From the NCBI GenBank assembly GCA_026419785.1, contig JAODTK010000999.1, positions 682,001 through 746,000 of the forward strand: a stretch of 64,000 nucleotides of DNA. The letters run 5' to 3'. The notes below the pieces were generated by a model, which worked only from the letters and a program-made list of their open reading frames with translations, ran no database searches and was not told where the DNA came from. Position 1 is the first letter of the stretch, and each line of letters begins with the position of its first letter. The DNA comes from Sclerodactyla briareus. Lineage: Eukaryota; Echinodermata; Holothuroidea; Dendrochirotida; Sclerodactylidae. Positions 1,359 to 24,378 of this stretch are shown piece after piece. A program made the position numbers and the translations under genes.

Positions 1359-2090
1359 TATGGAAACGCCAAAACAGATATTATCGATATTTATCGGATC
1401 AGTTCCTCATTATGCAGACCAATCTCCGTCACTAATGACAAAAAACATCTTTACTCATTAAGGCGACTCGGGTAGTCTGTCGCATAACTACATATTACTT
1501 TAATTTTCCTGGACGAACATGTCTTTGCACATAATGAGTGCCGTTTTGGACCATATGCTGAACTTCGTTGTGGATCAAACGCATTATTCAACAGACTTGC
1601 TACCGCATAAGAATCTTAGCGCATATTCGGCCACACCAGCGCCGCATAATGATTTCTCACTCTCTCATTATTCGACAATCAAAACTACTGACGCATAATT
1701 TACTTCTTACCCATTATCCGGCAGCCACCAGCGCCGCATAATGATTCCTTCCTAATTATTCGGCAGAACACACGACCGCATACTTACTTCTGCCCTCACT
1801 ATTCGGCAGCCGATACTTCCGAATAATGGTTCAAGAAATTTTGAGCAAAGGGCTCTCACCGCATCAAAGCAATAGGCGCAGAAGACTGAGAAAACTGCAC
1901 CATTCGCACGAAACACCAATATTCGAATCAGATGGCTCTCCTGCCATTTTCAGGACTCCATCTGGTAAACCATACTAACTACGGAAGCTGACAGGTACGG
2001 CAGTTGTTATGTGTGAGTGGCGCGATATTAGGTGTCAGGTTGAACAACCAGTTATGTGTCCGTTTTCTGTTATATGTGAGTGTCGGTTTG

Positions 2091-2156
2091 ACTGGCAATC
2101 CCACTGGCAATTTCAGTGGCAATTCTGGTGGCAGTTTAGGTGGCAATGTCAGTGGC
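2091..2156. repeat. 12-bp minisatellite (GGCAATTTCAGT-like)
   Basis: Five to six diverged units of the type GTGGCAATTTCA follow one another at 12-bp steps inside the core of foldback element A. In one frame they spell an apparent WQFQWQFWWQF peptide, which is an artefact of the repeat. Confidence 0.75.
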
Positions 2157-2261
2157 GGTATAGACCCGTTTCAGTGACAATTTCAGTGACAATTGGAAGG
2201 GTCCTCGATGGAATATCTCTGAAGATCATGGCTATGGTAGGAATGGAACCCACGATGAAGA

Positions 2262-3240
2262 AATGTAAGGATTACTATCGATTAGTTTTCGGAATTTTAA
2301 CTGTCATTTCGTGATTGCCTACTGCCATAAGTCGCGGGAAGTGCCGCCTCCCTGCAATCTGATGAAGGGGGGGGTGGGGTCTGTCAGACTATTTTCTTGT
2401 ACGGTTCACGGGCAACTCTGGTGGTGCGCATTGTAATGAATAAAAGGAGATCACGTTCCCTTCAAGAGTGTTTCTTGATACATTTCAGAAATTTATTGTC
2501 AATTTTGGGGATGTTGCTTACTGCCATAGACATGGGAAGTCGTTGTCCCGGCCCTCCTTGGGGTTCGTAGGCTCAAAAGTTCCCTTTGTACCTATACGAG
2601 ACCATTAATGCTGGCCCAAATTGTAACGAATAACCATCGATTATACCTTCAAGCCCGTTCTTGACATACGGATTTCTTGGATTATTGCCAATTTGTTTTT
2701 TTTTTAGAGATGTGCTCACTGCCATACAGCGCGGAATTGCCGTTTTCCCTGCAAACCTAGTGGTCTGTAAAACGAAAATTTGTAACTTTTTACCTACGCG
2801 TCCACTGATGGTGGGGCTGGCCCGAATTGTAGGATACCTATCGATCAGTTCCCTCAAGAACGTTTCTAGAAATGAATTCTGAAATTTATTGCCAATTTTA
2901 GGGACTTTGCTTCTGCCATACCGTCCGGGAAATTCCGTTTCCTGCAATTAACTTATCTCGGGGGGGTCTGTAAATTTTTTTTTCTTTACTTTGTACCCTA
3001 CGCGTCAACAACTGGGACGATGGCCAATTGTACGGAATAAAGATTGATCAGTTCCTTCAAGATGTTTCTTGAAATAAAGAAATCGGGGGAATTTATTGTA
3101 CATTTATGGATGTTGCTTCCTGCCACTATGCCCCAAAGTGCCGGTTCCTGCAATCTGGGGGTCCTGTCAAACGAAAAATTTCACTGTACGCTACGCGCCA
3201 ACCCATGGGGCGCTCCGCTTAGATGGTGCTACCCTCATAT
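2262..3240. repeat. Tandem array of five ~200-bp units
   Basis: The phrase CTGCCATA and its surroundings recur at about 2322, 2521, 2719, 2913 and 3120, a step of 194-207 bp. Each unit has the same order of landmarks: TTCCTTCAAGAGTGTTTCTTG, AATTTATTGCCAATTTT, TTGCTTACTGCCATA, GGGAATTGCCG, CCTGCAATCT, GTCTGTAAAACG and TACGCGTC. Units differ by substitutions and small indels, suggesting an old array. It fills the core of foldback element A. Confidence 0.85.
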
Positions 3241-3300
3241 TCCCCCCACTCCCCCCCCCCCAAAGAAAAAAATAACACCAAAATCCTGGATGCGCCCCTG
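3205..3300. mobile_element. hAT-like MITE end (fragment)
   Basis: The right end reads CTGGATGCGCCCCTG, the complement of a hAT-type terminus starting CAGGGGCGCATCCAG. It abuts the inner inverted arm of element A at 3301. It shares CGCTCCGCTTAGATGGT (3211-3227) in inverted orientation with the complete hAT-like MITE at 52365-53405. I could not find a matching left end, so only one end is claimed. Confidence 0.5.
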
Positions 3301-4899
3301 ATTTACCACTAACTTGACACCTAATATCTCGCCACTCAAACATAACCCCATCGTACCTGTCGGCTTCCGTACAATCGCCATGGCAGAGAGGACGTCAAGG
3401 TAATACGCATTGCCGAAACGGCCATATTCAGATTACTCTTCTGCAGAGTTACTCGTTCGGCAGAGGTTTTCTTTCTCATTCTGCAGAGTTTTTCTCATTT
3501 TGCAGATTTTTCTCAATTCTGCAATAGGACCTGGCGGCAGAATGACAGAGTCGTTAAGTCTTCTGCTGCTGCTATGACGGTCCGAACATAAATAAAAATC
3601 AAGTTATTATGGCTGCCGTCTTTGTTGTCGAATAATGACAAAAAAAGTCATTATGTTGCAGTAATGATGCAATAATAGTAACTATGTCATATGCGCGCTA
3701 GTGTTCAGCTGGCCGATAATGACAATTAGTCTTATGTGACCATATGAGCTGCCTATAATGAGTAAGGAAGTCATTTTGCGGCGGCGATGGCTTCGAATAT
3801 GATAACATTTCCCATAAAAGGAACAATATTGTCAAATGGCAACTCAATTATGTGGCAGGGCAACGTTATTTTGAAAATAGAATAAAAGAAATTGCCGTTA
3901 TCCGATCGCATAATGAGTGCATACATATTTCTGTATTATGCGACAGAAAATTTGTCTTGCATAAATAATGATAAACTGCATCGGAATAGATAATCGAATA
4001 ATGTCCGTTTTGGCGTTTCATATTACAACAGCGAACGATAGACCTAGAGAAAGGTATATAGTTGGCCAACTATATCCCTCTCTATTATGGAAAGCCCTGC
4101 TGGGCAGAAATACCATATTTAATTGTCTACATATATTCCATTTTAGGTAGCATATATTCCATTTTATGGTAGCATATCTTCACAGCCAATTGGGAAGGCA
4201 AGGAATAGATAGGTAGCATTAACATCGATTTATGGTAGCATTAAATCGAATTATTCTAACCATAGATTCGATATATGCGACCATAATATTCGAATATATG
4301 CTACATATATTCGAATATATGCTACCAATATTTCGAATTTTATGGTAGCATTTCAATCGATATATGCTGCTACCATAATATTCCTGCCTGTCCTAGTGGC
4401 CTTGATATATGCTACCATAACTGAATAATGCTCCATAAAATCGAATTTATGGTACATTAATCGAATATTGCAACCATAATCTTCGATTTAATGCTACCAT
4501 AAATTCGTGTATATGCACAATATAATTCGGCCCAATCAACTACTGGAAAATATTAACCATCCCTATTGTCATTTGCTTACCACCAACCGTAGACAATAAT
4601 TCTTTTTCCCGGCACAAGTTTGCATTTGCCTCTCTTGGCCCCCTCTCGCTATATAGCTATGGCTGCGCCGGCGCCGCGCCGGGTCAATTGTCAAAATGCC
4701 GCGTACCAACAGATACGGAGGAATTTTCTTATCAGTTCGTCGTCGTAAATAATGGCTGCTGTCGGGTTTTTTCAACTTATAACCATATTGGGAAGCGGCA
4801 GAACATGACAATCAGCGAGAAGGTTTTTCAGTCACTCGAGATGTGTTGACTAGACTAGTATCTGAGAGAGCTCTTCATTATGCCAAATTGGGCGACTCG

Positions 4900-5960
4900 T
4901 CTCCACAGGAAACATCACAGCATCGATCCTATTGAAGGTTCTAAAGATGAATCGACCTCAATGGTGGACCGTATTAAGAACAAACACCAAATCCTGAGGT
5001 TCACAGCTGAAAGCTCCCGACTCTGAAGTCACTTATCTCGACTGAAAATATTCAAAGGGGAAATTTCCGTCAAAATCGGGCCTACTAGCACCAAAGTCTA
5101 TACCAAGCCCACAGGAACCTTCCAATATTTAGATCGTAACTCTGCACACCCCCTATCCACTTTCAAGGGCTCATCAAGGGAGATCTTACGATACTCACGC
5201 CTCTGCAGCAAGCGGCGACCTTCATAGATGAAGAGAAATTCCTTCATGGAAAAGTTCCTACTACGGAACTACATCAGAGAGGAATAACACTGCCTCAAGT
5301 GCGGTCGAGTTTGGGCAACCCAGCCCAGCCCCCGACGCCAGGGGACATTCCCACCCGAAACACAGTCGGACCCTCCATTGGTGTTTTTCAAGATAACCTA
5401 TACAAACCCCACCTCAAAACGATGACCTTAAAAGGCCTTAACAGAACACTGGCACCTCATCAGCGGTAACCCCGACTTATCACGTCTATTTCTCCCTAAA
5501 AGCCCCAGAATCGCTTACAAAAGGAGAAAATCTAGAGATTTACTAGTTAAATCCAGATTTCCTGCTAGCGTACTATGGCAACCAAGGGGAGACAGATATT
5601 GTTACTTCTGACGATGACGCCCACTAGAACGATTCTAATCGCAGCATGTTAGATGACCCCTAGCGGCATTCTTAACTTTGGAGACGCCACGCCCCTTCCG
5701 TAAGGCTACCACTGATGGATGCTCCAAAATACTACCGCGAGCAAAACTATATTCTGGCGTTAGTCTCAGACCTTTCAAACAAAAAGGCTCTAACAGTTTA
5801 CAATAACACGACTCAATTGCGCCTCATGGGCCACCTCCATACCACAACTTTTTAGCACAGATCCGGCGAAAAATCGATTATACGAGCCCAGATTCCACCC
5901 ATGCTCCCTGCACAATAAACCCTGTTCTCCAGGCTCCTATGATCCGCGACACTAAATGGT
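4900..5960 (+). mobile_element. Penelope-like element fossil, copy 1
   Basis: Fragments of the reverse-transcriptase C-terminal region are recognisable: KVYTKPTGTFQYLDRNSAHP near 5090-5150 and HWHLISGNPDLSRLF near 5440-5510, followed by RRKSRDLLVKS near 5525-5560. These blocks are typical of Penelope-like retroelements. The copy is broken many times, looks old, and sits between the arms of foldback element B. It shares its family with the copy near 20 kb. No intact endonuclease was recognised. Confidence 0.7.
5704..5760 (+). ncRNA. Hammerhead-ribozyme-like motif, Penelope copy 1 (degenerate)
   Basis: CTGATGG at 5712-5718 is followed by a 5-bp stem TGCTC/GAGCA with a 14-base loop, then AAAAC at 5743-5747. 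This is the layout of a hammerhead core: CUGAUGA, stem II, GAAAC. Two core positions differ from consensus. ACCA before the core can pair with TGG at 5754-5756, as stem I would, just after a TTC cleavage-type triplet. Penelope-like elements are known to carry hammerhead motifs, which supports the reading. Catalysis is unlikely in this copy. Confidence 0.5.
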
Positions 5961-6688
5961 GCACCGGCGACCCCCCCCCCCCCGTTTATTCTTTTATTCT
6001 TTTCATTTTCATGTGTCGGATCAGCGGCGGCCTACATAACGACGCGTTTACGTACTACAGTCATATATGGGCATACAGCATGCATACAATGTTCATATGC
6101 GCGCTGCCAACTCGTTAGCCATATTCTTTTACACAGGAATAGACGATTCCTACAAGCCAATGGGAAGGCGGATAGGTCGCTTAATCTAACATATGCTAGC
6201 TACCCAGCCATTAATTCGAATATATGGTAGCATTTAATTCGATTTAATCTACCATACATTTCGAATATATGGTAGCATCTATTTCGAATATATGGTAGCA
6301 TATATTCGATTTAATGCTACCATAAATTCGAATATATGGTAGTCATATCTTGAATATATGGTAGCATATATTATAGTCGATTATGGTACACAATAATTCG
6401 AATATATGGAGCATATATTCGAATATATGGTAGCATATATTAAGTGATTTATTGTACATAATTTCATATATGTACATATATTCCGAATATATGGTAGCAT
6501 AATATTCGATTTAATTCTACCATAAATGATTTAAGCTACAATGAATTCCTTCTTGCTTCCATTGGCTGTGCATTATGCTACCAAAATGGAATATATGCTT
6601 ACCATAAAATGGAATATAATTCTATCCATAAAATTGATTATATGGTAGCATTACTATGGTATGGTCTGTCGCAGTCAGGGCTTCCATA

Positions 6689-8224
6689 CTCCTTATTCAT
6701 ATAGACGCTATGCTACATCCACATCCATAGAGAGATGTCGTCAATTTACAGTACAATCATGTAAGGATAACCTGCAACTGTGGAGACTTTTTAACTGGTG
6801 AATAACAGTCGAGACTCTGAATTGAGGTAGATAATGGACAAGGCGCAGCCGAGTCCGCTATTAAGCTAAATTCGAGTCGAGACTGTTTATACACCAGTGA
6901 CAAGTCGAACTGCTGTAGTTTTTCTATTCTACACCCGCAAATCAAGAATTAGCCAAACGATTAGAGGATATCATGTCTCTAGATCTATCTCTACCATTAT
7001 ATAAGCATCTAGGGTACTATTGCGTTGGTTCAATCGAAGTAAATCGCAATCGCGTACCATACACAAAGATTGGCAGTGCGTGTGGTGCGTACTTCCACGG
7101 AGACGCATACAAACCAGCGTGCCAACCGGAGGGTTCTGCGCGGTGAACCCTGGCGTCTCCATGCAACGACAACGCTCGTTTTCGCTCGTTCCGTTGAGCA
7201 TTTACGCCCTCTGAGAGCTCGTAATCTGAAAACCTGCCTATAAATTAATTTATAGGTCAGTGATACTGAGCCGGATCTGCGCGTTGTAACATCAACTTCC
7301 AAAGGCTCACGAACACCTTACATTCGCGTTCAAAAACTACTTGCGTTTTACTTAACACCAAGCGCAAATCGAGCAGTATTCGATTGTTGGTGTTAACTAC
7401 TCTGACGCTGACTTGTTATTGCACCAAATATAGTCCGCTACGTAATTGGATTAGCCAATCAAATCCTGTATTTGCAAAACGGATGCTTGGGTTGTAAGGA
7501 AGAATAGAAGGCGCTATTTCAAAACAGGTCGGAAGTCAATTTTATACACCCTTGTGTATCACACCGCTCGGTGTCCCACATCGCGCACCGGACTGTGAGT
7601 CGCCCAAATATTCAATATCGCACACTCGCACATTCGCTGCAGCTGACAAAATGTGCTCGTGTAACGTTAATAATTTAGTTTATTTATTATACAATCACTG
7701 ACCGCCGGACATCCAGCAGGTTTGCCACAACGATGGAGAAAATTAATAATCATACTGGTTTAACACTTGGAAACAAGAGGACTATTGGTTGGAAACAAAA
7801 GGAAATACAGTTTTTACTGGAGTAAGGCTCGAGTCTGACTCGTAAACCAATTTACAAGTTAGGCAAACCCGGTCCTAACGTTATCTACCTATTTAAACGG
7901 TTTCGCGCAGGGCTGGTATTGGAAGCATACTTTCACAAGAGTCTGGTCTAAAGATTTTGTAGAGCCTATGTCGTTTTCTGAAAATTTGCAACATGTCGTA
8001 ATCCCCCCGCCATTCTGACGTGCTAATTCTTCCAATCTTCCATAGTCTGTCAAGTGGTTTGCCTGAGTGTAATGACTTCAAAAATATATTCAAATTCATG
8101 TGAGCGTTAGAAATGTGAAAATTGACATGTTATGGACTTATAACTTTATTACAATTACATAACCATTAGGCCCAAGTAAAATAATTTTTTTAAAACATGT
8201 TTATGTCCTGTTTTTTCAAAAATG
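6689..8224. other. Non-coding, nothing recognised
   Basis: Somewhat CpG-richer than the rest around 7020-7650 (for example GTGCGTGTGGTGCG and CGCACACTCGCACATTCGC), with overlapping short ORFs on both strands and no recognisable protein. A promoter cannot be excluded but no transcript model supports one. Confidence 0.45.
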
Positions 8225-23193: not shown

Positions 23194-23232
23194 GTTGTGT
23201 TGTGTGGTGTGTGTGTTGTGTGTGTGTGTGTT

Positions 23233-23266
<34 letters not shown>

Positions 23267-23353
23267 GTGTGTGTGTGTGTGGGTGTGTGTGTGTGTGGTT
23301 GTGTGGTGTGTGTGGTGTGTTGTGGTGTGTGTGTTGTGTGTGTGTGTGTTGTG
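23194..23353. repeat. (GT)n microsatellite with TTGTG interruptions
   Basis: About 160 bp of GTGTG interrupted by TTG and GGT. It gives spurious Cys-Val and Thr-His reading frames on the two strands. It directly precedes the ~300-bp tandem repeat. Confidence 0.95.
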
Positions 23354-23365
23354 ACGCTCAGCTTG

Positions 23366-24378
23366 TAAACACGATAACTTGATCAGGTCTGAGTAGGTCA
23401 GGCTCATACGTTGTAGTGTGTTTCCCCATGATGATCCATTAACTCTATTGTTTTGGGTCCGGTCAGAGGTCTCTTAGGTCACACGTCAAAAGTCTGAAAG
23501 ACCTTGTACCACTTAGTCCAGAATAGATGGTCCGATCAAGCTGAAATTCGTGTACCGCTTTCTTATGAGGAGTACAGGAACCCTATTGTTTTTGGTTCAG
23601 TTGGTAATGAATTTTGGTTGAAAATAGGAAATTTGTGAAAATTTGATATTTTAGCCTGTAAACACGATAAATTAACCCCACCTGATGGACGAAGCTCATA
23701 CTTGGTACGTGTGTTCCCCATGATGAGTACATGACCCTATTGTTTTTGGGGTCAGGTCAGAGGTCACCAGAGGTCAAAGTCTGAGAACATGTATAAACAC
23801 GATAGTCCAGAATGGTTGGTCCGATCAAGTGAAATTTTGTGTATAGCTTCTTATGGGGGTACAGGAACCCTATATGATTTTGGTTCGGTCAGAGGTAAAT
23901 TTTGTAGAAAATGGAATTTCTTTGAAAAGTCGATATTTTGGCTAATTCTTTCTGTTCTGGCGTGAACACTATCACTCCGACCCACCTGGATGGGATGAAG
24001 CCGTCATACTTGGTACGTGTGTTCCCCATGATGAGTACATGACCCTATTGTTTTTGGGGTCAGGTCAGAGGTCATCTGAGGTCACCAGAGGTTAAAAGTC
24101 TGAAAACCTTGTTTTCAGGTTAGGACTGAATTTTGGTTGAAAATAGGAAATTTGTGAAAATTTGATGAAATTCCAACCCGATCAAGTTGGAATTCGTGTA
24201 TAGCTTCTCTTATGGGGAGTACAGAAACCCTATTGTTTTTGGTTCAGGTCAGGAGTGAATTTTAGTCGAAAATGTGAAATTTGTGAAATTGTATTTTCTT
24301 AGAGGCCAATTTCGACCTTGTAAACCCATCCTCGACCCACCTGATGAAGCTCATACTTGGTATGTGTGTTCCCCATCT
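23366..24378. repeat. Tandem repeat, ~300-350-bp units, about 3 copies plus a partial
   Basis: The phrase CTCATACTTGGTACGTGTG followed by TTCCCCATGATGAGTACATG recurs at about 23400 (diverged), 23690, 24005 and 24350. Between them the order is GGGGTCAGGTCAGAGGTCA, then GTCCGATCAAG, GTATAGCTTCT, GGAACCCTATTGTTTTTGG and GAAAATAGGAAATTTGTGAA. Units differ by small indels. Similar GGTCAGAGGTCA-type tandem repeats are common in marine invertebrate introns. No coding potential. Confidence 0.85.

Follow-up and report, generated by a model that had tools for sequence, protein, structure and literature searches.

In sea urchin TU elements the outer arm consists of iterated short repeats and the target duplications are 8 bp long; Galileo of Drosophila makes 7-bp duplications and has tips other than those described below. 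As far as the available portions of the papers cited here and below by PMC number go, most described foldback elements seem to be Mutator-like and Galileo P-like (PMC4079207), with Tm1 of Meloidogyne (duplications of 8 to 10 bp, mostly 9 bp, and units most often of 14 bp; PMC3169594) and Tetris of Drosophila (8 to 10 bp; PMC4079207) combining composite terminal repeats of repeated units with non-autonomous copies, and Galileo, of the P superfamily, combining long, internally repetitive terminal repeats with arm rearrangement and division into subfamilies (PMC3573991, PMC3688188). In IS3EU families the ends are TA..TA and the duplications usually 6 bp long (PMC10045372), and fungal IS3EU elements have TAYGG..CCRTA ends, a 6-bp duplication and terminal repeats of more than 30 bp (PMC12730594). 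Here we describe two adjacent foldback elements, A and B, in a 64,000-nucleotide stretch of the sea cucumber Sclerodactyla briareus (contig JAODTK010000999.1 of assembly GCA_026419785.1, positions 682,001 to 746,000; hereafter the window).

Both elements have TATGG..CCATA ends and belong to families with 6-bp target duplications, a combination that fits the IS3EU signature and not that of Mutator/Foldback elements (8 to 10 bp). A and B are therefore probably cut-and-paste DNA transposons of IS3EU/GingerRoot type, non-autonomous and bearing foldback arms. Such arms are mainly known from Mutator-like elements and Galileo, and if this assignment is right, IS3EU-tipped foldbacks would represent a further independent origin and would point to arm arrays as a recurrent solution to the problem of end recognition. 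We found no description of an IS3EU foldback in the open-licence literature, the scope of our search, which leaves aside subscription papers and Repbase reports; in the available part of PMC8268682, IS3EU is the label of two oyster satellites and "foldback" occurs in the reference list only, a hint that tandem arrays accompany the IS3EU group elsewhere.

Extent, tips and target duplications

Element A occupies 1359 to 4022 (2664 bp) and element B 4086 to 6688 (2603 bp), 63 bp apart, so that the two neighbours of nearly equal length described in the first-pass annotation are borne out. The genome (319 Mb in 3171 contigs) was searched with each whole element, the best 40 of 198 candidates being scored for B and the best 40 of 2347 for A. 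The boundaries of B were set by two end-to-end relatives on other contigs (C2538 and C2876, 79% identity), other relatives matching in part, and those of A by one end-to-end relative, also on another contig (C2484, 76%); three more A relatives (C2887, C2145 and C2877) gave two overlapping matches apiece, and further A copies have the ends in common. Copies with matching ends thus exist on other contigs for both elements; their absence would have refuted the first-pass annotation. A and B are two distinct, diverged, multi-copy families of foldback architecture, with long terminal inverted repeats of iterated short units. Within the window they share no sequence at a blastn E value of ≤0.1, the tips being too short to score.

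The tips are what the two families have in common. With boundaries fixed by the genomic relatives, ends of both begin TATGGAA[A/C]GCC.....GGACA and then diverge; in the window the tips lie at 1359 to 1379 (plus strand, TATGGAAACGCCAAAACAGAT) and 4002 to 4022 (minus strand) in A and at 4086 to 4106 (plus strand, TATGGAAAGCCCTGCTGGGCA) and 6668 to 6688 (minus strand) in B. Consensuses from 20 aligned ends per family (TATGGAAAGCCCTGCTGGACAGAAATACCATATTTAATGCTACC for B, TATGGAACGCCAAAACGGACATTATTCGATTATT for A) are identical at 15 of the outermost 21 positions, the chance of 15 or more being 1.7e-5 (p = 0.26 per site, at a fixed position), and at 6 of the 13 that follow, so that the likeness amounts to a tip of about 21 bp that fades beyond. 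This exceeds the 15 bp within which the first-pass annotation would have given up its claim that the ends are alike. A and B may have one ancestor or may share only a transposase recognition tip; the 21-bp tip is the only sequence in common that we found. One A copy (C3156, L025:1471-1487) carries two left tips in head-to-tail order, the first reduced to 16 bp and the second complete. A sequence of about 300 bp (C2279, L054:25-324) with B-like tips at an end-to-end edit distance of 1, similar units and unequal flanking 6-mers is a possible miniature inverted-repeat transposable element. An A-like tip in C2949 was rejected as a copy, having neither an A-type arm behind it nor a partner within about 3 kb.

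Target duplications were sought in the flanks of elements for which both ends could be located: 17 of B, 11 of A and 11 of a third family, D, described below. A B copy lacking its left end (C1915b) was left out of this and of the arm-similarity, orientation and phasing counts, and kept in the unit-motif count. Agreement between left and right flanks peaks at 6 bp (0.72 in B, 0.64 in D and 0.55 in A), against 0.24 to 0.39 at 4, 5, 7, 8 and 9 bp across the three families and 0.24 to 0.34 in B alone. Since some degraded ends had at first been placed by hand, the count was repeated with placement by tip consensus alone, which gave 0.72, 0.62 and 0.48 at 6 bp for B, D and A, respectively. The 6-bp length is firm in B and D and weaker in A. 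The 8-bp duplication proposed at first did not hold, agreement at that length being only 0.24 to 0.31. Exact 6-mer pairs flank 6 of 17 B elements (GACGTT, CCCGAT, CGCGTA, CCCGGG, CACGAG and CACGTG), 3 of 11 D elements (AACGTG around the 6954-bp element of C2768, CCCGGG around the 13.5-kb element of C234 and GGCGCA around the 2.9-kb element of C2055) and 1 of 11 A elements (GGTGGG). Pairs within an edit distance of 1 number 10/17 in B, 4/11 in D and 4/11 in A (3 to 4 of 11 in A over both placements), compared with means of 1.2, 0.45 and 0.45 and maxima of 6, 3 and 3 in shuffled-partner controls. The window copies' own duplications are imperfect: TTACAG (1353 to 1358) and TTACAA (4023 to 4028) around A, at edit distance 1, and CTCTAT (4080 to 4085) and CTCCTT (6689 to 6694) around B, at edit distance 2. 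Imperfect pairs may reflect the divergence of the copies, which are rich in indels.

Target sites are centred on CpG in B and D, not in A. In B, a CpG starts at target position 3 at 30 of 47 ends and at no more than 6 of 47 at any other of 11 offsets; at positions 3 and 4 it occurs at 1 of 23 A ends and, in the first set, at 2 of 5 D ends. Among the paired elements these positions are CpG in 7/11 left and 8/11 right flanks of D and in 11/17 and 14/17 of B. Among the flanks of 15 B elements (30 in all, two per element and so not independent), 28 have C as the third base, 24 have G as the fourth and 16 have T as the fifth. This CpG-centred target is a specific and testable property of the two families. 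The observed/expected CpG ratio in 300-bp flanks is 1.00 for A (17 copies) and 0.93 for B (24 copies), compared with 0.49 in the window from 7 to 64 kb, a thin control from one window.

Superfamily assignment and its alternatives

The resemblance to IS3EU/GingerRoot elements covers the termini, TATGG..CCATA fitting TAYGG..CCRTA, the 6-bp duplication, clear in B and D but in A exact in only 1 of 11 pairs and within one edit in 3 to 4 of 11, and terminal inverted repeats of more than 30 bp, left and right ends aligning over 56 consensus positions in B and 82 in A. A and B differ from that group in that their arms run to hundreds of base pairs of short units in both orientations, in that no transposase was found in the parts read, and in the CpG-centred target of B and D, of which the available parts of PMC12730594 and PMC10045372 make no mention. 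Tm1 and Tetris, which are similar in arm structure, differ in their tips and in their 8- to 10-bp duplications, agreement here being 0.24 to 0.31 at 8 and 9 bp; Galileo belongs to another superfamily, and agreement at its length of 7 bp is 0.26 to 0.34. Nor do the flanks show the 8-bp duplication of TU elements (0.24 to 0.31), so that the kinship with TU first suggested gives way to a 6-bp duplication and IS3EU-like tips.

Several results weigh against the IS3EU assignment. With automatic boundaries the 6-bp peak of A is weak (0.48 compared with 0.40 at 5 bp), and 7/17 B, 7/11 D and 7/11 A flank pairs, that of B in the window included, differ by two or more edits. A tblastn search of loci L009 to L074 with seven relic pieces found no transposase in the copies read (5 kb plus the ends for the 13.5-kb element of C234), and neither did a Pfam scan of 16 chosen frames, 13 of them in A, B and D loci, many element frames lying outside that scan. 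PF13683 (IS3-like) has no match in the genome, though it matches in 8 of 14 control genomes. Relics of the integrase core PF24764, the putative IS3EU transposase, speak for the assignment by their presence (five matches at four loci, C2228, C3014, C2120 and C720; none in the 14 control genomes), but at the three loci read to about 4 kb on either side no convincing TATGG pair spans the relic: three weak candidate pairs in C3014 have a similar counterpart in each of two of three shuffled controls, and none of the inverted repeats around the relics (7, 3 and 4 pairs) has TATGG ends. In C3014 the relic, whose frame scores 4.3e-8 against PF24764, is enclosed by D ends that face each other at a distance of 23.7 kb (C3014:491818-515474; L072, L044 and L073) and have unequal flanks; neither DNA nor protein queries from the relic region scored another match in the genome, except for a repeat of about 310 bp at its edge. 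We treat this arrangement as a lead only. An interior segment common to C234 and C3014 was considered as part of an autonomous body and rejected: it is a dispersed repeat (1305 candidates, best 40 scored), so that its sharing proves nothing on that point.

Three other explanations have to be set beside the IS3EU assignment. That A and B are not transposons at all, and represent locally duplicated arrays or a satellite that folds back, is hardly credible: the tandem-like look of the arms and the neighbouring B copies of C1915, with similar right flanks, would suit it, but the families have common ends, are dispersed over numerous contigs, where their immediate flanks differ, and, a strong argument, make 6-bp duplications. 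A more serious alternative, though still an improbable one, is that another superfamily with 6-bp duplications (a 6-bp hAT, a Dada-like or an undescribed one) moves the elements and that the match to IS3EU is coincidental. The tips of hAT and Polinton elements differ from TATGG, which counts against it, as does the fit of this five-base tip to the published TAYGG. It gains from the lack of any transposase linked to the elements and from the hAT families with 6-bp duplications mentioned in the available part of PMC12730594. We give appreciably less credence to the idea that A and B are Mutator (FB/Tm1/TU) or P (Galileo) foldbacks that start with TATGG by chance; they share the architecture of arms made of short repeated units with these groups, to which most described foldbacks seem to belong (PMC4079207), yet B and D duplicate 6 bp of target, in none of the three families does agreement rise above background at 7, 8 or 9 bp, and the Mutator-type elements Tm1 (8 to 10 bp, mostly 9 bp) and Tetris (8 to 10 bp) make longer ones.

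Arm units and their proposed turnover

The arms, with approximate inner limits, lie at 1359 to 1950 and 3400 to 4022 in A, built of CATTATTCGGCAG and CGCATAATGA units in both orientations, and at 4086 to 4530 and 6190 to 6688 in B, built of units phased at about 22 bp (TATTCGAATATATG[CTACC] and its reverse). In the outer 600 bp per side, seven unit motifs (three of B, four of A; one to three mismatches allowed) occur 3 to 12 times in the window copies, compared with means of 0.10 to 0.56 and maxima of 2 to 4 in 300 dinucleotide shuffles, and none occurs in the middle of these copies. A and B thus have the same architecture with unlike units, as first described, the tips being common to both and the arms not. 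In B, 247 of 295 spacings of up to 110 bp lie no more than 3 bp from a multiple of 22 bp, where about 94 are expected under uniformity. The first-pass annotation was right about the short units; their strict alternation did not stand, orientations being mixed (of 301 adjacent unit pairs in 15 B copies, 133 are opposite). Its large hairpins in every arm are found in B, whose arms fold far beyond shuffled sequences (z = −12.9 and −9.6 in the window, −20.2 in C3061), and barely in A, whose window arms fold weakly (z = −2.5 and −1.2) and those of C2887 moderately (z = −5.2). By eye, a spacer of the CACAGCCAATGGGAAGC type seems to border the B arrays (4181 to 4209, 6150 to 6176 and 6544 to 6570), the copy on the right arm's inner side being inverted.

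A degenerate tip pattern, with 26 matches in the genome and 3 in a reversed control, led to family D (C1260, C2041, C2282 and C421), whose tip TATGGAAAGCC[C/G]TGCTGG resembles that of B. The spacer is similar in the two (computed consensus CACAGCCAATGGGAAGCAAGGAATATAT in B, CACAACCAACAGCGATCAGAATATAT in D), and they are alike in the unit core TATTCGAATATAT, whereas the unit joint differs. Units were counted on both strands over the 600 bp next to each end. In 22 B arms ATGCTACC (AT followed by GCTACC) has 204 occurrences, and 5 D arms have none. For AT followed by GCACC, GCACG, CCACG, ACACG or ACACC the combined count in these arms is 33 for D and 10 for B; if one mismatch is tolerated, the D copy of C2282 does contain one B-type unit. 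A search with D ends gave at least 139 matches among the best 40 of 90 candidates, and facing ends, paired by eye, lie 0.5 to 24 kb apart. With near-identical tips, a CpG target, a similar spacer and other arm units, D is apparently a sister family of B. Copies with B-like tips and other arm units, which had been proposed as a check, are therefore represented by D, and the suggestion that arms turn over while ends stay fixed is supported for B versus D. Two other products of the tip pattern were rejected: a candidate family C (L056 to L061), in which homology extends upstream of TATGG in several pairs, and, within it, L060 and L061 (C1908 and C2377), where a chance TATGGAANGCC match stands near the CACTCTATTAGAGTG palindromic units of a dispersed repeat unrelated to the elements.

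Turnover by homogenisation within elements was considered and rejected. Left and right arms are no more alike within than between elements (0.611 and 0.611 in 15 B elements, 0.538 and 0.557 in 11 A elements), so that conversion within elements is not the visible cause. We envisage that a transposase made elsewhere would recognise the tips and probably also the repeated arm units, much as the THAP domain of Galileo does its arm repeats; the available text on Galileo (PMC3688188) is the basis for regarding the arm as a binding array. The transposase would then bring both ends together, cut, and insert the element with a 6-bp stagger, in B and D with a preference for a CG step at the target's centre. 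Arm arrays would change through gain, loss and replacement of units, the tip and the target choice being kept by the transposase. The B/D pair offers a natural experiment in this respect, its arm arrays rewritten and its tips and target choice kept. More tentatively, we speculate that IS3EU-type transposons evolved foldback arms whose whole unit sets could be replaced, as between B and D, with tip and CpG target fixed, because the units are putative transposase docking sites spaced at two helical turns that coevolve with diverging transposases.

Interiors and other features

The interiors of A (2190 to 3248) and B (4925 to 6012) are each found alone many times in the genome among the matches scored, most A matches listed being confined to the former segment and many B matches to the latter (query positions 866 to 1953). 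Eight B relatives of at least 1.9 kb with both ends contain the B interior, whole in six and partial in two, and the A interior is matched in four of nine relatives; each segment was probably acquired before its family's spread or part of it. Six interior frames gave no Pfam family at the cut-off. By eye, about five diverged copies of a unit of some 195 bp (..CTGCCATA..GGGAA..CCTGCAAT..) seem to make up a satellite-like core of the A interior at 2320 to 3150. Outside the interior segment, A carries an inner inverted repeat whose 36-nucleotide left copy (2006 to 2041, plus strand) is 92% complementary to its right copy (3311 to 3346, minus strand). The palindrome TATAGTTGGCCAACTATA lies at 4057 to 4074, in the 63 bp that separate A from B. 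Farther along the window, about two tandem copies of a 308-bp unit (79% match) occupy 23514 to 24084, with a TG run nearby at 23196 to 23353.

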